DNA of 64,000 nt from Apus apus (taxonomy: Eukaryota; Chordata; Aves; Apodiformes; Apodidae): assembly GCF_020740795.1 (NCBI RefSeq), contig NC_067285.1, forward strand, positions 20,914,241-20,978,240, in the 5' to 3' direction. A program made the position numbers and the translations under genes. Shown piece after piece: positions 17,901 to 59,800 of this stretch. The stretch's first letter is position 1. Each line of letters begins with the position of its first letter. The notes beneath the pieces are model-generated. The model searched no databases, was not told the origin of the DNA, and saw only the letters and a program-made list of their open reading frames with translations.

Positions 17901-18150
17901 GTTATTTTGACAAGCTTGTGTTATTTAGCTGGAGATAAAGCCCTCGCGCACACCAGAAACGTTTCCTTCAATGCAGACTGCTTGGGGCACGCGGGTTTCC
18001 ATGGCTCAGGAGGCGTAGCTCTCCTTTGGGTCTTAGGTTCCTCTGCCCTCTCGTGGTACAAATCGGGCGTGTCCCGGTAGCCCGCGGTTCCTGCCGCCAA
18101 CCGGGACCGTCGGTCCCCGCTGCGCCCACACCCCCAGGCCGGGTCGGGAG

Positions 18151-18182
18151 CGGTGCCGGTGCCGGTGCCGGTGCCGGTGCCG
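18151..18182. repeat. GGTGCC hexanucleotide repeat
   Basis: About five copies of GGTGCC in the CpG island, roughly 300 bases upstream of the HELLS start codon. If transcribed, the repeat would read Val-Pro dipeptides in an upstream open frame. Confidence 0.85.
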
Positions 18183-18312
18183 CTCCGGCTGGCAGCGCCA
18201 GGCAGGGCGATGAAGCCCGGGCAGCTCCGTGCTCGGCCGCCGCTGCCGGGGCGCGCGGCGCCGCACAGCGCCCGAGGCGCGGCCGAACGGGAGCGCCCGA
18301 GGCGGGGCCGAC

Positions 18313-18321
18313 CTCGCGAGA
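18313..18321. promoter_or_regulatory. CGCG palindrome (BANP/Kaiso-type element), copy 1
   Basis: CTCGCGAGA matches nine of ten bases of the TCTCGCGAGA element common in CpG-island promoters and bound by BANP in an unmethylated state. It lies about 170 bases upstream of the HELLS ATG. Binding is inferred from the motif. Confidence 0.5.
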
Positions 18322-18365
18322 GCGCCGCCACCTCTCGCGCGGCTTGGGCAGCGCGCGTATTTCGG

Positions 18366-18374
18366 TCTCGCGAG
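18366..18374. promoter_or_regulatory. CGCG palindrome (BANP/Kaiso-type element), copy 2
   Basis: TCTCGCGAG followed by G, again nine of ten bases of the TCTCGCGAGA consensus. It lies 53 bases downstream of copy 1 and about 115 bases upstream of the HELLS ATG, a usual position for this promoter element. Confidence 0.55.
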
Positions 18375-18419
18375 GCGGGCGGCTGGCGCGCGGGGAGGCG
18401 GCGCGCGCGCGCGCGGGAG

Positions 18420-18430
18420 TTTGGCGGGAG
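18420..18430 (+). promoter_or_regulatory. E2F-type site of HELLS
   Basis: TTTGGCGGGAG is very close to the consensus E2F site (TTTSGCGSS). It sits 57 bases upstream of the start codon. HELLS is known to be a proliferation-linked, E2F-responsive gene in mammals, so the site fits S-phase expression. Confidence 0.6.
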
Positions 18431-18486
18431 GCGGCGTCTGCGGCAGCGCGTGCGGCTCCCGCGCCTCACGGCCCCGGCGCGCGGCC

Positions 18487-40252
<21,766 letters not shown>

Positions 40253-47800: not shown

Positions 47801-50800
47801 AAGACAGCAGGAAGTACCTGGCCTCCAACAGCTATTGCAAGTGACCCTTGCTGGGAAGGAAGCTGCAGCAGTCACATTTTTCAGGCTCTTCTTTATCACC
47901 TCTGCTCATTCCCTTTGCCTCAAGTAGCATTTTGCTCACATCAACAACATAGCACGTTTTTAAATCTCTAAAGGAATCAGCTAAACAATTATCCCCAGGA
48001 ACTGTAACCTGTTCTGCCCTGCAAAACACCCTGCACCTAAGAGCACAGGGTCAGGTCTGGGCACAGACCTACCACACTGCTTCCACACACCAGCACCCGC
48101 ACACAGGCCCATGCCCAGGGCCAGGCGCTCACCTGCAGTCAATCAGCAGAGCTGAGACAGCCAGCCATGCCCCCAGGGGACTTGTCCCAGCTGAGGAGAT
48201 GGGTCCCTGCTGCTACTCACAAGCCATTGCCTCAAGACAGGATTGGAGAAGCAGCCAACAAACTTATCATCACTGCGGACACGCTCTGAGGCGGCAGCAG
48301 CGCTGGGAGCTCGGCTGCAGCAGCCTGGGGCACTGTCTCCTCAGGAACAGACATTCCTTTGGGAGTGTGTAACCTCCCGGCCCTGCTCTGCACGGGTGAT
48401 TATCAGCTCACAGTGGAGTAATGCCAAAGCCTATCCTGGCCTGTGATCAGGCAGGCAAACCTTGTGCCAGAGAATCCCCATAATGCTGCAAATCTTCAAA
48501 GAAAGATAAAATGGGCTTTTGCTTCTTATCTTCTTCAGCTCTACTAAGCACAGGGGAGGACCTTGGATGCGTGAGAAGTCCCGGCTACTCCAGTCCCTTC
48601 CATGCAGGAGCTGAACCCTGAAGGGCAAGTTGCAAACACTCAATATTTAAAAGATGCTTCCAGGTTGGTATTTTAACAGCATACTAAAGACTCCAAGATC
48701 CCTTTTTCTTTCTTCCTATTGTTTCCTTATTTCCTTCATTTTGCTCTTTCCTTACAAATCCCTCAGACATACCAGCACTTGGCCAATCTGTTTCCCTTTG
48801 TGGCAAATATCTCAGCACCAGGCTTTTGTTGGATGAAACTGAACATTCCACTGCCAAGCTAATAACACAAAAGACAAAATTTCAACTGGCCTAAGGAAAA
48901 AAAAAAAAGTCATTCTTCAAATTCTTTTCCTATGTATTTGTTTATTTTATTTTATTCAAAGGGAGAAGAGAGTATGGTTTGGCACCCACCTAAGTGAATC
49001 AGCTTTTTATCTTAAAGCCTATAGTCCTGAACTGCACAAGTCCAGATGGCAGACCAAGAATGTCAAGCAGAACAAAGTTTCAGAGATTAAAAGCTATGAA
49101 CTGCTCACTGTAACCCGGCTTCTACATTTTTACTTACAGCTGCAGAAATGGATCCTTTTGCTTGTGTAGTGGGATGGAGATCAGAAGCTTTAGGACTCAC
49201 TGAAGAGCCCCATTTTATGGTATTATTCAAAGCCTTGAATCTAAGATGGTCTTTAATCAGTAAATATTATCTTAAAAGGCAAAACTTTAGAAACCAAATA
49301 AGTTTTTGCAGCTTCTAAAATTCCTTCTTGATAACTAAATGTTGTAGGGCGTTATTTCTTTAGCACTCCATAAGTAAGCAATGATAAGGGCTCCTAGACA
49401 CTGAAACTAATCAAGGAGAGGAAATTTAAGAGTAAAGTTAGTGAAATGGTCTGTTCCTGTGGAAACCATCTACACACACAATCACCAGCTAAGGAAGGGA
49501 AACAAAGTTCTAGATGTTTCTCTTACACACTGTCCAAGGAATGGCAAAAGGGAAGAGCACAGTCAGATTAGGTGTGCAGTGAGTGCTTACCTTTCTCTTC
49601 TGACTCCAAAATCTCTTGCAACACAAGGAAGGAAGCAGATTGTCTGGGTGGCTCATTTGACTCTTGATTCTCCTGGAGCATCTTGTAAACCTCAGATTCT
49701 CTGTCTATTGCGATGCTGCCTGGGGGCTGGTTATGCTGATCTAAACTGAGGAAGGAACAGAGAACACACTTGTTAGACAGCTGAAAACTATAGCCAGTCC
49801 CGTTAGCAAAATTTTCACAATGCATCATATAACTGAAGAATGAACGTGCAAAACAAACCGACAAGAGGATGCCATAAAACACAGATGTGCTGGATGTGCT
49901 TGCACAAGACAGATGCAGCCTGGGTGGGATTGGCACGCTGGGCTATCCATGTACACCACACTGTCACCAGGTTCTCTCTCACTGCCCCTGGCCAGTTCCC
50001 CAGTGTTGTTCCTGCTTTAACATTAACACGTACTCCAGAAACTAGAACTTTTTGACCAATTACTGCTCTGTTAATAGGAAAACAAAGTACTCATGTGCTG
50101 GGATGAGAACCCCACATGGTAGCTGTGCCATCTGTGCATATTCCTTGCATGCATTAACTGCCTTCAACTGCTGCCTTAACTGCTGTGAAACTCAAGTAAA
50201 GTTTATTCCATTAAAAATAAATCTTTGCAAGTACACTATGAATTGTTCCTAAAGGCAACTTTGATAAAGTAGGATCTAACTAAAAGATCCTCTGATTGTC
50301 AATAATTTACAGCTTTTAAGTAAGGTTAATGAGCAGGTCAAGAGCAGAGGTGATGTCTGCCTGCTGACAATAAGCCATCCTTTCAGCTGCCCTCTGAGAT
50401 GCTGCTGCTGCCACTCGCATCACAAGGGACTTGCACCCTGAGGGGTGGGGGCCTAGAGCCCGAGGTGCTTGAGGGGAAGTTTTCACAGTGCAAGGTGGCT
50501 GAAAAGGTGGAAAAAGAAAAAAAAAAAGGCTGGTGGCATTACCTAGGATATTCTCCACATCCAGTGGGTAGAGGCTAAACTACAGGCTTAAAACTGGAGG
50601 AGAATATTCAGAATATCCCCTGCAAAAAGTTTTCCAACGGACAGACACCGAAGTACCAGAGAAGACTGCTGTGAATGAGCAACCTGATCTAGTTGAAGAT
50701 GTCCCTGTTCACTGCAGGGGGGTTGGACTTCATGGCTTTTAAAGGTCCCTCCCAACCCAAACCATTAAATGAGTCTACAGTTCTATAATTTAAAAAAGAA

Positions 50801-53800
50801 TCTGGAAAAATCCACTGGGGATTATTTAAATCAATGGTTTAAACTGACCGAATGATGGGCTAGGGGATGGACTAAAGGACACAGGAGGTTCCTGCATGCC
50901 TTTTATCGTGTGGCTGGAATAAAACATCTCTGGAAAAAGAGACAAGTCTCTGACAGCTCAATTACATAATGCAGCCTTATAAATGTGTATAGTCTATTAG
51001 GTTTCACCATCCTTGCACCCTGTGATTGCCTGAAAAGTACACAAGCATCTGGAAGCTCAGACTAAATTGCAGAAGGAAGTCCTTCTTGAGGAGACAACTG
51101 CACACTTTCTGTACCAATGTGCAATTGGGAGTTTCTATAAACTCTTCAAGCACAAGAGGTAAAATCATAGTGTGTGTTATAAAATGTTGCTTTAATAAAA
51201 AGAATTTCATAAGATGTTTCCATCTTTATTACTTTCCAGTGGAGCAGGAAGCACATTAGACTTGCAAGCATCTGAACCCTTGAAGCCTAAATCTCATTTA
51301 CTGAAGTCTCTAAAATAGATTAATGATATGCCTTTTATTGCACAGAAAATGTCCTAGGTTATCCTAAATGAATCCATGTTCCACATTATATTCATCACAT
51401 GGAAACTCATATACTCCTACCACTCTCCACCCACAAAAACATTAGGCAAGAAGCCTGTCGTTGCAGCTTGCATACTAAGAATGTTTCACTAGCATGCAGT
51501 CAAAAAGCGAAGGCTAAATCATCTTAAAGAGCACTAGAGTCAAACAAAGCCATCACATTTCAACCATGCATTGTGACAGTGTGCAAAACATTCAGATTAG
51601 CTCTCCCAGGTATGCACTCTAGATATACTTGCATATACAAGACTTCTGAAAGACTAAAAAAGCAAACACCTCAAGTCCTAGAATTTTTTTCCAGCCAAGT
51701 GAATTACCTCAACTTGTCAGGGCAGAAAGCACTGTTGCTTAAAGAAAAAAACCAAAACCCAACCCCCCCAAAAAAAACCTCACCAAAAAGCACAAGCAGC
51801 TATTGAATGGGCAAGGCCACAGGCACAGGAATTGTGCCTGCAGGAAAATAATGAGTCTCTGCATATCTGCTGATTTACGGAGCCTCCTGTTAAGCAGGTA
51901 CTTTACCTGCAGCAATCACCAGCAAGTGGTGTCCTTTTCCATGCACAGGATCTCCCCAGTGCAGAAACTTTGTAGGGGACAACTCCAACAAACTTTAGTG
52001 GATTTGAGTCTCACAAAACCATTTCTGGATTTCATCGCTGCTACCATGGGCAGCTTGCAACACTGACTGAATGACACTGGCTCATTGAGGTTTGAAAATT
52101 GGCAAGATGGTAGTAAAAACCATAAAGACACAGCCTTGCACAGTGTCTTCAGAAAAGCACAGCTTATTCTTTACTAACATCGTACTATTTTATGCTAGCA
52201 CGTTTTGTAAAGTTCACAAGGATCTCAAGGCTGGGCTACAAGAAGGCCCAGTACTTGGGGCACTTGCTTTTGCAATGAAACAATTGCTGATGCCTGGGGC
52301 TTCTCTGTGAGCATTATCAGCCATCTGGACCAGCTCAGCCTGCCAGCAGAGTGTGACCTCTCCTGGTACACACATTATCAACTGCGAGCCAGAGCAGTGA
52401 CTTACAGCAAGTAACTGGACTGAGTAACAAGGCAGGGGTAAACCCACAGCCTACCATTATCTCTTTGCTGGTGCACAGCAAAGCTTGGCTGTGTGGGTCC
52501 ATGGATGAAGACACCAACTTTCCTGCTTTGAAGCACATGATGCTCAGCCCAGGAGGAGACTACGAACAGTGGAGAAGCTAGAAGATCTGGCTGTGCCCTT
52601 TTCCTCTGTCCCGTGGAGGCCATGGGACTGACTGTCTCGCTGAACCGCAGGTCACAGATGCAAGCTGCTTGGTCACACACTTTGCTGAAGGTTCACATCT
52701 TTCGAAACACTTCAGCCTCGATTGGAACCCTCCTGCTTTCTGTTTCACCCTTCTCGATACTGAAGTCCTCCCTGTAAAACCCTGCACTGCTTGGCTCCCA
52801 ACTGCCACAAAGCAAGCACCAAAGAGCACCGAGGCCCCATGATGCCAAGGCTCTCCACAGATCCTGCAGACCTCAAAGCATGTCAAGCATTCTCTGCTCC
52901 TACAGGCAAAGATGCTGCCCCAAGAACAGCAACCTGTGCAGACAACTGGGTAAGGGTGGAAACACAGACTGGGTCCTCCATGTGCCTGCCCAGGATGCTC
53001 CAAACTCATGATTGTTATCAGCTAAAGACAGAAACCCACGGGGACCTGCTTTGGCCTGAAATGAAACCTGCCCAGCACACACCCACGGCCCAGCCCACAG
53101 CCAGCGAAACAAAAGCACAAGAACACACATGGCAGCACTTTCCAGTCACAAACCACAACAGTTGTTTCAGTGCAGGAGAAATGCCAGCACTCCACAGCAG
53201 CCACCAAAATCCATCTGCTGCAGATGGCTCCTCAAGAAACACCAGCAGCTGCTGTCAAGGCCCTGCTGTGCACATGGGCCAGGGCGATGGACACACCAAC
53301 AGGCTGAAATGATGCTTTGGTGCTTCCCGTGGCACTGGACACACACACAGTGCAGAGAAAGCTCCCGTGAAGTCATGCACCGATGTTGGTAAGGTGAAAT
53401 GTAAATGCTGCTTCCTTGTGACTCATGCCGTGAGCCAGAGTCAGGGAGGAGGCACCCGTGGACACCAAGACGTGGATGAACGGATGTGCCGAGCCGGCCG
53501 CAGAGGCAGCGGGCAGGTTACCTGGGAAAATCGGGGCTAACGGAAGAGATCTGTCCCTGCAGGGAATCCATGATGTTGCTCTGTGAATAGAGCTGCAGGG
53601 GAGAATTGAACTGCACGTGCAGCACTTTGAGTCCTGGCACCTCCACTTCCACGGGGCTGTTGGGGCAGGCCTGGGCCACGTGCTTCAGCTGCTGGGGCCC
53701 CGCTCGAAGCTGCCCGGGGCCGGACGGGCTGTGCCCGCGCTGCTGCGCCCGGGCGCCTGGCGCTGGCGGGGAGGGGGGGACGGAGGCGCGGGGAGCCTGC

Positions 53801-56800
53801 GCTGCGCCCGGCGGCGAGGGGCGGCTACAGGCCCACGGTCACACGGGGGTTTGGGGGTTCATTTGCGTTTTACGTTGTGGAATTGAGGGAGAAATTCCGA
53901 GGAGGAAGAGAGGGAAGAAGGAAGAAATTAATGAAGGGCTAAACCGAATGCTCCAAGCAATAAAAGCAGTTGCAGAATGCTGTCTGATCCTTGTGCGGAG
54001 GGGACACAGCACTGAACATTACAGGCTTCTGGCTGATGCTGTGGCTTTGGTCTCGCACTCTAGGTGTGTCCACACAAAAAATAAACTGCAGACACTCCAC
54101 TGATTAGCAAATGCGGGGGTTGTAAAAGCAACAAAGACATGGCAACAGGAGTTTTCCTATGAACTAGCTACCTGAGTTCACACTCATGGTCCCACTGTCC
54201 CGTCAAGGAATGCCACCTCCACTGCTGCCCTTCCCAGAGTTAGCCTGGGCACTCTACTGAGGGGCAATCTCACCTCTGATTCCAAAATAGATGAGCTTAG
54301 CTGTTGAGCTTCTCCTTGCCCTCCCCACCTGCTTTGTGACACCAAATCCAGTAGAGATATTTGCTGGTGGTTCTGTCTGTATCATAGCCCTGCATTTACA
54401 TCACACAATCTTTAAGGATGGACTATGGACCAGATCCCAGTGTCATGTCACCATGTGCAGTGCAGGATCAGGCTGCTGCTAAGTGCCAAGTAAACCAGAG
54501 CAATGTTGGCCACACATAAGTAACTCAGCAAAAAAACCCAGACTGGCAGGAATTTGAAGGCAGCTGGGAGGTCGAGTGAAGGGAGAACCTACACATCCTG
54601 TGCTTGTGCACTGGGGAGATCACAGTGGGCTTTTAATGGCAGGGTGAGGCCCCTGGCTGTCCCTGAAAACCAGCAGCATTTATTTTGCTTTTGGTGACTG
54701 TGTAAACAAATGTGTATTAGCATCAAAATTGTCCCCCACAGTCCCCCCAGCATTCCTTTGCAACTTGCTGTTTCAGCAAGGGAAAGATTAAAGAGATGTC
54801 ATGTACTCCACATGCAGCAGAGCTGGCAATGGACCTTCCTGCTAGGAGGAGCACATTAAGCCACAGCACTAGAAGAAACCTCTTTGCTGATTTCTGAAAG
54901 GAAAAGGGATCACCTACGTGTTTCCAGCCAAATATACCTGGCTTCCAGGGAGTGCTCTCACCTGGAGGGGACTCCAGACTAGCCATGAGGCGGTACTGGA
55001 CTTCCAAATGGTCCCATCAGTTTAATGCAAAGTCAGATTTCCCTTTGTCCTTGCCCTGCCTTTGCTCAGCCCCTGAATGAGGCTGCTGAGATCTACCAGA
55101 AGCAAATAAGGAACAAACATCTGTCACCTCATCTGCCAGCTGCAGCACTGTAACTCTGCCTAGAAGGGCCCATGTGAAACCAGGGCTCTGCTTTCAGTCA
55201 GACTTGTGTTAAACCATAGTCTCAAGTCTTTGTGTCCTGCAAAAGCAGATGCTGAAGTTACTTTTGTCTCCCCATTCACAAATAAGGAATTTAGCTGAGT
55301 ATTATCTAAAGCATTGGTCTTGCAGCTTCTGCTGTAGAAGTGGTCAGCGTTTTCCAGTTTGGTACTGCTATACAGAGACCTAGAGCAGCTAAGCAACTTC
55401 ACCAACATAGCCAGAAAGATTTCAGAAAGCTCCTAGTCTATTGCTTCTAATGAAAAAAAAATGAACTTTGGGCTTCTGCAATAAAGCAATGTCTTTGGTG
55501 CAGTAAGATAAAACCACAAGAATCAACAGGCCCTTAAAAGGTTGGGACCCTTTCCAATCCTATATATAAAATCCCTCATACACGTATCAATGTTTCAGCT
55601 ACTTTCTAAAACTCCTGTGAAAAACAAGGTTCAAAAATTAAAAATGGAAAGATGAAAACTTAGAGCCTGTCTCTGAATCCCAAGCCAGCCAGGAACGGGG
55701 ACACATGTGCTTCCTACACTAGCTGGTACCCATCCTTCCTGGCATTGCCCGCAAAGCCAGCACAAAACACTAAGTGTACACAGTGCTCATAACAAGCTGT
55801 CAAGCACCTGTTCAGGCCAGCGGGCTGGAATGTCATGCTGAACGCACGTGGGAACTGCGTCGGTCTCTGCTAAACAAAGAAACACAACAGCATTAATTTC
55901 ATTTCTGCATCTCATGAAATGTTGCCCGCTCCTGAGCCCTGCCCCTGGGAACCACATCCATGCTCATGCCTCTGCTCCTTCTCTTGTCCTGAAAAAAAAG
56001 CTTTTTGGGGTTAATGAATTGGTACCCTTGCAGAAAACTCATGTCTCCTGGAGCCTAGACAGGGAAGGAAAGGTGATGAAGATACTTACAGCTTGGTAGG
56101 CTCGGGGGCCCCAGGTGATGTCTTTGTCTCCACTGCACTGTTGAAGGTTTGGATGTTCTCTGAGGAGTACAGGCCTGCTGGGCTGTTGTACTGAGCAGTG
56201 ATCACTCTGGGGGCAGAAGCTGTGGCAGCAGTGAAGGGCACCGCGCTCCGGTTGTGTGCACTTCCTATGTGCCTTATTTCCTGCATGCAAAGGAGCAAAG
56301 GCAAAAATCAGAGGTGCTCAGGCATGCGGGTGGGATGTGACAGGGCAGCCTGGAGTGAGCAGCCACTGCAGTGGTGGTCTTTGCATGTGCTGTCAGCTGA
56401 GGAGCACATGACCACCAAAGAAGACAAGCATCCTTTATATATCAAGGCCCCCAGCCCCGTCCTGGATGACTTCAGGCTGACCTTCAGGACATTTCAGAGT
56501 TGATGCGCTGGGAACATAATTGCTCAGAAACACTGCCAGAGCTGTTAACTCAAGCTGACACACACCTGATTTTTTGCATTCCTCACAATCCCTGAAAGTA
56601 GAGCTGATTTCTATGGAAAAGTGTAGATGAGGGCCAGAAAGAGCAGCACTCTCCAATGACATCTGAAAGTCTGGCTCTAGGCAACCCAAAAGGAAGAGAT
56701 TTATCATTACTAAAAGTGCTCTGGAACATGTCTGCTCCTTCAGCTAAGACTGAGGTTCACAGCTGCCTTTGATTAATAACGTTGGACTTCCTGGACAAGA

Positions 56801-59800
56801 AATTCACACAATATAGGTGGGAAGATGACGGCTGTTACTACAAAAAATTGCCCACAGACAGTGACAGCTAAATGCCAGAGACCTCTTTAGGGCCAGAAGT
56901 ATGAGATATCACCCAGATGTTCTGGGTTTGAGGCAAACTGGAGACTTCCAGAGGTACTAGTAGATACTTGGAAACACTGGTTGCAATTTAATAAGAAAGG
57001 GGCCAAATCTAAGTTCAGTAAGACATGAGGTAAGAAAGACTCCTCTGAATCACAGCACTAAAACAATGAGGAAATTTCTAAGCTTCATCACCAGCTCAGC
57101 AGGCTGGGAATTCACAGCCTTGGGCAGAGATAACATCCCGGGCTTACTTCCTCCCCAGAGGAAACAACTGACCAAAGCAGGGAGAAAGCACAACAGGGCC
57201 TCACTAAAGCAGCTAGAAGAAAGGAGACATTCACATAACATTCACAGAGACAGCTGAAATATCCAGGACTAAAAGATGGTAACCAAAATGTGTATTTTGG
57301 AATGTTTCAACCAGCTGTAGAGATTGAGAATGGCTCTATTACAGGACTAGCACCCAGTGGCACAGGATGAAACAGCCCTTCTTGACATGCTGGGCCCATG
57401 CTTCCCAGCTCTAATTAACACAACCAAATCCCACTCCCACTCCATACAGGCACTGGCTTCAGCAACGAAGGGAGCCTTCAGTGCCCTTTGAACACCTCAT
57501 GGCATTTGTTTGATAGAGCTATAGTTACAGGATAAACACTTACTAGAAAGAAGAATGACTAAATTCCCCCACAGGTTTTTCTTTAAATTGCTTTTATGTC
57601 CCCCAGTTTCCTTAGGCAGCTAGCTAGCATTCCCAGACTGACAGATGGGAGTCATCTCACTTCAGGGCACTCAAATGCTATTTATGGCGTAAAGCACAGC
57701 ACTGGATCCCTCAGAGAAGAGCTGCATGCATCCAAACACATGAGCTACAAGTCATTTGAAATCAGTGGGGTAGCTCAAGATGTTCAGGTGTGGGGCTGTT
57801 CTCCCACGGCTTTCTGGCCGATGTGTGTGGACATAAGCCATGAAGCTTTCCCATACACCAAAGGAAGAAAGACCCTGGAGTAATTAGCTAATCTCCCTTT
57901 GTTGCAATCTCATTCAAAGCATATAATGTGTCTCATAAAAATAGTCTTTCCCATGGCAGAAACTGTGGATTTTAGCAAAAAAAAATATATTACTTCAGCC
58001 TGTATATCATACCATGGGGAAAAGTATCTGTGATCTTATATCAGCCTTAAATACGTGTTAGCCCACCATTAGGAGGCCACAAGTAGGAGGGTTCCAGACA
58101 CGCACATAAATAATTGGTTCAATGAAGACAGAGGGAGAAGTTTTAGTCTAAAGGGGTTATACTCTTGGGTCAAATGGGCTTAAAGTTGAAACCACGTCAC
58201 AACTTGTATTGCGGAAATGTTTAAGTTTTAACCAAGAATTAGTGCAAGGGAAGTAATTTAGAGTTGTTGTTTTTTTTAATTCTGGTTTCCTAAGGAAGTA
58301 AAGTGTCTCAGTTACATACTCCACATACATGTGGGCACATTCCCACCCCCACCAAGGATTTTGGAATCTGTCAGCCAAGCCCAAATCACTTTGACAGTGA
58401 TGGAGGACTCCAGGATGTTGAAGTTCCTACAAATGTTGAGAAAATAGCCAGATGGAGGAGAGACTGAAATCACATTAGTGCCTTCACCCCAATAACTGCA
58501 ACATGCACCCAGGCACGGAGTCCACATAGGAGATTTTTTACCTAGCTTTGGCCACCAGGTAGGGTTTCTGCTATATAGTAACACCCTAGACCATAAATGA
58601 AGCTTTCAAAAGTGTCAGAAGACCTGTAATCTGTTTTATCATGTGGATAAAGTCCACTGACTATATGGGAGTTTGTAATAGGTTAAACAGAGATATAGGT
58701 GCAGAAGGTGGTGTCTTTAGATTAGAAAAGTCCCATCTGGAGTACAGTGTAGAAAGTGTGTAACCCAAGAGTCTACAGACAAGTATTACAAGCAAAGTAA
58801 CAACATTATAAAGGGCATTTGGATAATCCAGATCCTCCAGCACTTCCCATCACACTCTGCTACACTTTCTGCTTGAGCTATGGAAGGAATTTGCTAAGAA
58901 CAAGGGCTTTCATGATCTCAAGATCAAAAGATAATGTGTTCTTACTGTCAAATATATTTACACTGGGATTTTCCAGAAGTGCCAATCCAGACCCTGTGCT
59001 GTGCAGCAGTTTTGTTAAAGCCTTAGCTCCTGGAATCATGCGTTTATATGAGAGTCTCTGACTTAATACTGGAGGGGGGGGTGTGAAATCAGAAATGTGA
59101 GCCAGGATGCCACTTCTGAACTCGGACAGGTCTCTTCTTGCTTTGTTTTCAAAATGAAGTAATTCCTCCAAAAGCCCCTCCCTACCTGAAACTACCTCCT
59201 CTATATGAAAAGCTCAAAGTGGCTTTTGAGCACAATCCCCTGTGCTTCCCAAGTCCTTCAACCACTAGTGCAACACACTCCCCCTGACAATCATAAAGAA
59301 AAAAATTAAGTCCCAAGGACAAACAAGGTTTGCAGGCCCCAGCTTCAGGTCAAATTTGTCAGCCTCTTGCCAGATGTTTTCTGGGTGCCAGTTGTTAGTG
59401 GCAGCAGCGCTCTCTGAGGCAGCCGGGAACACTGCTGTGCGCTGCAGGCCCTGCAATGCAGCCCTTCCAGATGGGTGCACCAAGGGGCTTCCCTCATCCC
59501 CCCTTCCTGGCAGGGCGTCACCAGTCACAGTGCCAGGCTGCCGGGAAAGGGAAAATGTCCCTGCGCCAGGGCAGGAAGCAGATCAGCATTTCCTACCGCA
59601 CCGGCTGCAGGCTGCGTCATGGAGAATTATCTGGGAAAACAATGGCCCCTTCCTCCCTTTCGTCCCGCTCACGCCAGGCCATGCTTGGTGATGCTGAAGG
59701 CCAGCCTGTGAAACCCCCACAGCTGCACCAGCTGTCACCTCTGTGCCTCGGGCTGGCCAGCAGCTGGTGGCGTGGGTGGCTGCTGCCTCCTTGCCATGCA

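Follow-up and report, generated by a model that had tools for sequence, protein, structure and literature searches.

PDLIM1 is described as the more widely expressed member of its gene family, harboring a single ZM motif. The PDLIM1 locus of Apus apus raises the question of whether the gene also retains a second, alternative ZM exon of the type found in PDLIM3 (ALP), and if so, where this exon begins and how it could be joined to its neighbors. In the sections available of the 2007 family study by te Velthuis and colleagues (PMC1781342), ZASP and ALP are assigned two ZM motifs and elfin (PDLIM1) one. Reviews, in the excerpts available, name the ZM motif in PDLIM1, and those excerpts do not mention a second. 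Among the matches listed by a literature search, with most subscription journals outside its range, no title dealt with such an additional ZM exon of PDLIM1.

The sequence basis is the window, i.e., the whole 64,000-nt stretch of Apus apus DNA that was analyzed, together with its flanks, and a single genome of 1.10 Gb in 110 contigs.

Gene Organization and the Alternative Segment

PDLIM1 lies on the minus strand with exon 1 near 88.3 kb, outside the window. The exons relevant here and the parts of the alternative segment are the following:

65618-65534, minus strand: PDLIM1 exon 3, outside the window, ending in phase 0
56280-56090, minus strand: PDLIM1 exon 4, the known ZM exon, 191 nt, phase 0 to 2
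53522-53824, minus strand: alternative ZM exon of PDLIM1, homologous to PDLIM3 exon 6; with the boundaries proposed here, 303 nt long and in phase 2 at both ends
53524-53697, minus strand: part of the alternative exon homologous to PDLIM3 exon 6, 58 codons, containing the segment that corresponds to the alpha-actinin-rod-binding peptide as well as the N-terminal portion of DUF4749
53520-53524, minus strand: 5′ splice site CAG/GT of the alternative exon, donor score 3.4
49745-49591, minus strand: PDLIM1 exon 5, the shared downstream exon, entered in phase 2, with the C-terminal half of DUF4749 (63 bits)
46538-46421, minus strand: PDLIM1 exon 6
from about 44.9 kb, minus strand: PDLIM1 LIM exon

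A PDZ domain, the exon 4 ZM motif, a second DUF4749 half in the next exon, and LIM are all shared with PDLIM1 (elfin, CLP36) as described. Between exons 4 and 5, the coding (minus) strand carries an open frame (53838-53518) with the donor CAG/GTAACC directly after 53522, in agreement with a preliminary description of this DNA that had reported an open segment with a proper donor at this place. With one and the same matrix, the donors of exons 4 and 5 score 2.1 and 7.0, respectively, and that of the alternative exon 3.4. The segment exits in phase 2, as exon 4 does, and reads without a stop through exons 5 and 6; the equality of exit phases claimed earlier is thereby borne out.

Identity of the ZM Segment and Its Relatives in the Genome

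The alternative ZM segment is genuine and not a chance match. It is recognized by the Pfam profile DUF4749 (ZM, PF15936) with 38.6 bits and an E value of 1.9e-9 (cut-off 28.7), the alignment covering positions 1-31 of the 93 profile positions, and the joined frame of the alternative exon and the C-terminal half of the domain in exon 5 is free of stops. The score is not lower than that of exon 4 (35.9 bits). A whole-genome search with the DUF4749 profile returns nine places, three of which are in PDLIM1 (exon 5, the alternative exon at 37.9 bits, and exon 4). On the basis of sequence likeness, the three places on contig C5 at 82.26 Mb are taken to be PDLIM3, the two at 28.4 Mb are taken to be LDB3, and the single C-terminal half on contig C14 is probably PDLIM4.

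The closest relative in the genome is exon 6 of PDLIM3. In a tblastn search of the window plus 10 kb, the PDLIM3 exon 6 peptide from the same genome matches PDLIM1 over 58 amino acids with 52% identity (73.2 bits, E 2e-19), while the second match of this query, PDLIM1 exon 4, reaches only 27.3 bits. When the alternative-exon peptide is searched against the 1.10-Gb genome, PDLIM3 exon 6 is the best non-self match (54%, E 2.5e-15) and the LDB3 ZM exon is next (38%, E 2.6e-4); PDLIM3 exon 4 is third (E 0.2), and two more places (E 2 and 9.9) are chance-like. Over 28 aligned columns, the BLOSUM62 score of the alternative peptide is 106 against PDLIM3 exon 6 and 39 against PDLIM1 exon 4. These values, together with the tblastn score, confirm the earlier claim that the peptide is nearer to the PDLIM3/ALP ZM exon than to PDLIM1 exon 4.

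The profile and tblastn matches rule out a chance open frame. A search of the PDB with the segment gave one chance match only (E 1.2), and no relatives were found in IMG/VR and GTDB genomes.

Probable Start of the Alternative Exon

The 3′ end of the exon is marked by its donor, and its start is delimited by an in-frame stop at 53841-53839, which forbids a start further upstream. The region just downstream of this limit and the intron before it contain the following features:

53825-53940, minus strand: AG exclusion zone before the alternative exon, between the AGs at 53940 and 53826
53931-53927, minus strand: branch-like TTAAT within the AG exclusion zone
53927-53899, minus strand: 29-nt pyrimidine run within the AG exclusion zone
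53826-53825, minus strand: acceptor AG at the end of the AG exclusion zone, placing the exon start at 53824

The 114-nt AG-free gap that ends before 53824 is the longest among the 1,196 AG-to-AG gaps from 65490 to 49740, and a gap of at least 114 nt was obtained in 3 of 1000 shuffles of 54300-53522. AG-free zones of 95 and 104 nt precede the counterpart exons of PDLIM3 and LDB3, respectively, the starts of which were taken as the first AG past the in-frame stop, without transcripts. At six other PDLIM1 and PDLIM3 exons, the zone measures 23 to about 56 nt, the upper value, that of exon 3, being approximate. Since the gap is the longest of the region and the same architecture is seen in PDLIM3 and LDB3, 53824 is preferred over 53709, the start given in the preliminary description. 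A phase 2 start at 53824 is thus the most likely one for the alternative exon, and the 53709 start is probably wrong.

Two observations count against 53824. The acceptor scores low (−1.9), as does that of PDLIM3 exon 6 (−3.2 on the same matrix), and two other AG-free gaps reach 100 nt, the one at 58045 measuring 102 nt and the one at 53421 measuring 100 nt. Both of these gaps are in PDLIM1 introns, the one at 53421 just downstream of the alternative donor. Entry in phase 2 holds only with the acceptor at 53824 or with another phase 2 AG. An AG at 53656 is in phase 2 and scores 0.5, but its use would remove the first 14 homologous codons; an AG at 53762 scores 2.9 and follows a strong pyrimidine tract but is out of frame. 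The leader encoded by 53823-53698 is GC-rich and has no homology in the searches made.

If exon 3 were instead joined directly to 53709, a 188-nt exon would replace exon 4 one for one. The entry would be in phase 0, as for exon 4, the joined frame is open, detectable homology starts close by at 53697, and the acceptor score (−3.3) is on a par with that of PDLIM3 exon 6. However, several AGs lie 19 to 53 nt upstream of 53709 and no long pyrimidine run precedes it, while in PDLIM3 a long AG-free zone leads up to an exon with phase 2 entry, and such zones are also present in LDB3 and, ending at 53824, in PDLIM1. A direct join to 53709 is therefore considered improbable. The near equality in length with exon 4 that had been pointed out earlier holds from 53709 (188 vs 191 nt) but not from the favored start, from which the exon is 303 nt long.

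Long AG-free zones have been characterized in other genes. According to the available portion of the work of Gooding and colleagues (PMC1431707), 838 introns among 67,334 from human have zones of at least 100 nt, and between one fifth and one half of these zones are taken to mark distant branch points; exons behind such zones undergo alternative splicing more often, and each of the few examined by experiment was regulated by PTB. The distant-branch-point exons of alpha-tropomyosin and alpha-actinin, as treated in the same portion, are alternatively spliced and have their branch point far upstream behind an AG-free zone. In contrast to these exons, the PDLIM1 branch point and any role of PTB are read from sequence only. 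The acceptor at 53824 is probably served by a distant branch point approximately 100 nt upstream, and the 29-nt pyrimidine run next to it would suit repression by PTB outside muscle.

Joining Rules and a Candidate Partner Exon

With the start at 53824, the possible exon joins are constrained. Exon 3 joined straight to 53824 runs into a stop, and so does the transcript in which everything from exon 3 to exon 5 is skipped; in both cases the frame is interrupted upstream of exon 5 or right where exon 5 begins. Because 53824 is entered in phase 2 and exon 3 ends in phase 0, the alternative exon must follow either exon 4 or a small phase 0-to-2 exon.

The joined frame of exon 4 followed by the 303-nt alternative exon is also open, so phase does not enforce mutual exclusion of the two ZM exons, which the preliminary description had put forward as a possibility. 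The same arrangement would allow the 303-nt exon to act as a cassette inserted after exon 4, yielding two tandem ZM motifs with no separate exon 5. The exit phase of exon 4 equals the entry and exit phase of the exon from 53824, and no recognizable PDLIM3-like exon 5 was found in PDLIM1, both of which speak for a cassette. Nevertheless, it is unlikely, given that the described human PDLIM3 isoforms, in the part of the source available (PMC3983107), carry exon 4 or exons 5/6 but not both, and that a candidate for exon 5 does exist in PDLIM1:

55808-55866, minus strand: candidate for the partner exon (59 nt, phase 0 to 2), located where PDLIM3 has its exon 5; alternative start at 55869

In a splice-score scan of the interval between exon 4 and the alternative ZM exon, 55866-55808 tops the four phase 0-to-2 candidates listed, two of which are the same exon with either start. 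Its splice score is unremarkable alone, being matched in 83 of 300 shuffled introns. The candidate also carries five CpG dinucleotides in a CpG-poor intron; at least four CpG occur in 90 of 17,708 same-size intronic windows, which fall into three clusters including the candidate, although this CpG test was chosen once the sequence had been seen. Score and CpG content were jointly reached in 0 of 1000 shuffles, and in 11 of 1000 with looser limits (score 4, four CpG). Elsewhere in the gene, CpG clusters at 59558-59673 and 48244-48340, in introns 3 and 5, could be exons or regulatory elements.

PDLIM3 exon 5 is 68 nt long (DMNYFEHRHNIRPKPFIVSGRS) and is ranked first in its own interval by the same scan. 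The likeness of 55866-55808 to this exon is not significant (618 of 2000 shuffles were as good), and a tblastn search for a PDLIM3-like exon 5 in the PDLIM1 intron gave nothing above chance. In LDB3, a partner exon was not found by short motifs, and the splice-score scan gave one weak candidate. On sequence grounds, 55866-55808 is thus a candidate for the partner exon 5 of the alternative exon.

A choice between exon 4 and exons 5 plus 6, as in PDLIM3, is favored as a better model than a one-for-one exchange. As a whole, the preliminary description is supported in its ALP-type ZM exon, its exit phase, and its age (see below), whereas its 53709 start, its phase 0 entry, and its direct join to exon 3 most likely need revision.

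Regulatory Sequences around the Exon

Three further features surround the ZM exons:

53551-54000, minus strand: CpG-island-like stretch covering the alternative exon and its acceptor region, inside a CpG-poor intron
53374-53379, minus strand: RBFOX-type site TGCATG, 143 nt past the donor of the alternative exon
56284-56289, minus strand: RBFOX-type site TGCATG, immediately upstream of the acceptor AG of exon 4

In three 300-nt windows from 54000 to 53501, the GC content is 0.64-0.70 and the CpG observed/expected ratio is 0.62-0.99, as compared with a ratio of 0.00-0.24 in nine windows from 55000 to 53901. The stretch is one of five such CpG runs in the window plus 30 kb. Two adjoining CpG-island-like runs at 17901-19100 and 19151-19450 of the window are a possible promoter of a neighboring gene. 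Local GC enrichment may have produced the stretch at 53551-54000 as a side effect, or the stretch may mark an internal promoter.

With an internal promoter, the segment would be a first exon, translated from the ATG in NIMDSL into a short LIM form without PDZ. The sharp CpG island in a CpG-poor intron would fit such a promoter, and the NIMDSL ATG is flanked by A at −3 and by G at +4. However, much of the homologous stretch lies upstream of this ATG, is not explained by a first exon, and has no earlier methionine in its open frame; the presence of homologous codons upstream of the first ATG speaks against a pure first exon. Moreover, the long AG-free zone is common to PDLIM3 and LDB3. In these two genes, the exon plus the 150 nt before it has a CpG observed/expected ratio of 0.42 and 0.56, respectively, which is below the 0.76 of PDLIM1. 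A first exon of this kind is very improbable.

The two RBFOX-type sites are suggestive only. TGCATG occurs 14 times in about 16 kb of the gene, with 9.7 expected, which is not striking. For the MBNL-type motif YGCY, counts in eight stretches revealed no enrichment over local composition; the highest, seven in the 150 nt before exon 4, compares with an intron average of 2.4 per 150 nt and with 6.8 predicted by the local composition before exon 4.

Age, Constraint, and Origin of the Exon Pair

The alternative exon is old and constrained, as judged from its comparison with PDLIM3. Thirty of its 58 residues are identical to PDLIM3 exon 6, and the agreement is 59% at first, 81% at second, and 41% at third codon positions. 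For the alternative exon, exon 4, and exon 5 (the last vs PDLIM3 exon 7), dN against PDLIM3 is 0.387, 0.403, and 0.511, respectively, the exon 4 pair comprising 43 of 63 codons (a gap and an unalignable tail excluded) and the exon 5/7 pair 35 codons. For the same codons, pS is 0.71, 0.98, and 0.84, respectively, so that silent sites are near saturation. The similarity of dN to that of used exons indicates that the protein sequence of the alternative segment has been kept about as well as theirs.

These values also bear on whether the segment is a relic, functional until fairly recently but now unspliced in this lineage. The low acceptor score and the single genome examined leave some room for a relic. 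On the other hand, the frame is open, the donor is intact, the DUF4749 score is not below that of exon 4, and amino-acid change is not in excess of that in exon 4, making a relic rather unlikely.

The origin of the exon pair was addressed by comparing three trees of the six ZM segments of PDLIM1, PDLIM3, and LDB3 over 28 columns. The best tree groups the segments by exon type, placing the three alternative exons together. A fully gene-wise tree is worse by the AU test (p 0.035) but is not excluded by the SH test (p 0.058); a tree with a duplication in PDLIM1 alone is worse by both (AU p 0.016, SH p 0.045). The preference for the exon-type tree argues that the exon pair is older than the gene split. 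Thus, the two ZM exon types most likely predate the divergence of PDLIM1, PDLIM3, and LDB3, consistent with the proposal in the preliminary description that the pair is older than the PDLIM1-PDLIM3 split and extending it to LDB3.

Two other origins were considered and set aside. A recent PDLIM3 copy inserted in PDLIM1 does not fit the third-position identity of 41%, the pS of 0.71, and the lack of any other DNA match; in the whole genome, no further DNA-level match of the alternative exon was found at E 0.001. Duplication inside PDLIM1 is disfavored by the tree test, within its 28 columns and three trees and with the SH value of the gene-wise tree noted above.

The Proposed Switch and Known ZM Systems

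PDLIM3 is the closest known system. In the available portion of the study of the human gene (PMC3983107), PDLIM3b uses exon 4, is the fetal form in skeletal muscle, and is more widespread, while PDLIM3a (exons 5 and 6) and PDLIM3c (exon 5 alone) are found mainly in postnatal muscle. PDLIM3 exon 6 and the PDLIM1 alternative exon share a homologous ZM segment, exit in phase 2, and a long AG-free zone. PDLIM3 exon 6 also enters in phase 2, as would the PDLIM1 exon at its proposed start. The two genes differ in the leader, which in PDLIM1 is unrelated, GC-rich, and accompanied by a CpG island, and in the partner exon, which in PDLIM1 is a candidate only.

The ZM region of ALP binds alpha-actinin. 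In the sections available of the relevant study (PMC2670261), an apparent Kd of 3 micromolar is given for binding of the ALP peptide PLEMELPGVKIVHAQFNTPMQL to the alpha-actinin rod, mutation of the Tyr-Ser right after PLEMELPGVKIVHAQFNTPMQL abolishes stress-fiber localization, and the internal region of ALP is reported to be largely unfolded. The PDLIM1 segment is identical to the rod-binding peptide at 13 of 22 residues and keeps the Tyr-Ser (LQLYSQ), so that the alternative PDLIM1 segment would be expected to dock on the alpha-actinin rod.

LDB3 (ZASP/Cypher), placed in the Enigma subfamily, offers a more distant parallel. Its alternative ZM exon contains a homologous segment (38% identity), and a second ZM-type exon upstream (YNNPIGLYSAETLRE) parallels PDLIM1 exon 4. 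The 104-nt AG-free zone of LDB3 holds a CCTCTCTTCC stretch that is present in PDLIM1 too. The LDB3 ZM exon is located at G000:C5:28405721-28406030, and the common CCTCTCTTCC suggests shared splice regulation of ZM exons.

On balance, it is somewhat favored that PDLIM1 keeps an ancestral two-state ZM switch as in PDLIM3, with exon 4 as one alternative and a 59+303-nt block as the other. This proposal builds on homology, long constraint, exit phase, and the long AG-free zones that precede the homologous exons in three genes. By default, exon 3 would be spliced to exon 4 and exon 4 to exon 5. In the second state, exon 4 would be skipped and a small phase 0-to-2 exon (best candidate 55866-55808) used together with 53824-53522. 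The resulting protein would be 57 residues longer (59+303 vs 191 nt), as compared with a gain of 48 residues in PDLIM3 of the same genome (68+264 vs 188 nt), and its exon 4 motif would be replaced by a PDLIM3-type segment, the ALP counterpart of which binds the alpha-actinin rod. A longer PDLIM1 with ALP-type docking on alpha-actinin would thereby be made in striated muscle, and a muscle switch would be consistent with the RBFOX-type sites, one at the acceptor of exon 4 and one 3′ of the new donor. The exact start, the partner exon, the use in muscle, the trans-acting factors, and the binding are predicted parts of this scheme.

Implications

A broader hypothesis, for which the chances appear evenly balanced, is that PDLIM1, PDLIM3, and LDB3 inherited one splice switch together with its distant-branch-point acceptor and that PDLIM1 still uses the switch, giving an undescribed sarcomeric isoform from a hidden exon 5 plus 6 block that was lost or overlooked in mammals. 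PDLIM1 may thus have an overlooked muscle form. Retention of a muscle-type ZM exon would add a Z-disc form to PDLIM1, and would place the origin of the ZM exon pair and its acceptor architecture before the gene family split. In that case, an isoform may be missing from annotations and from loss-of-function studies of PDLIM1.
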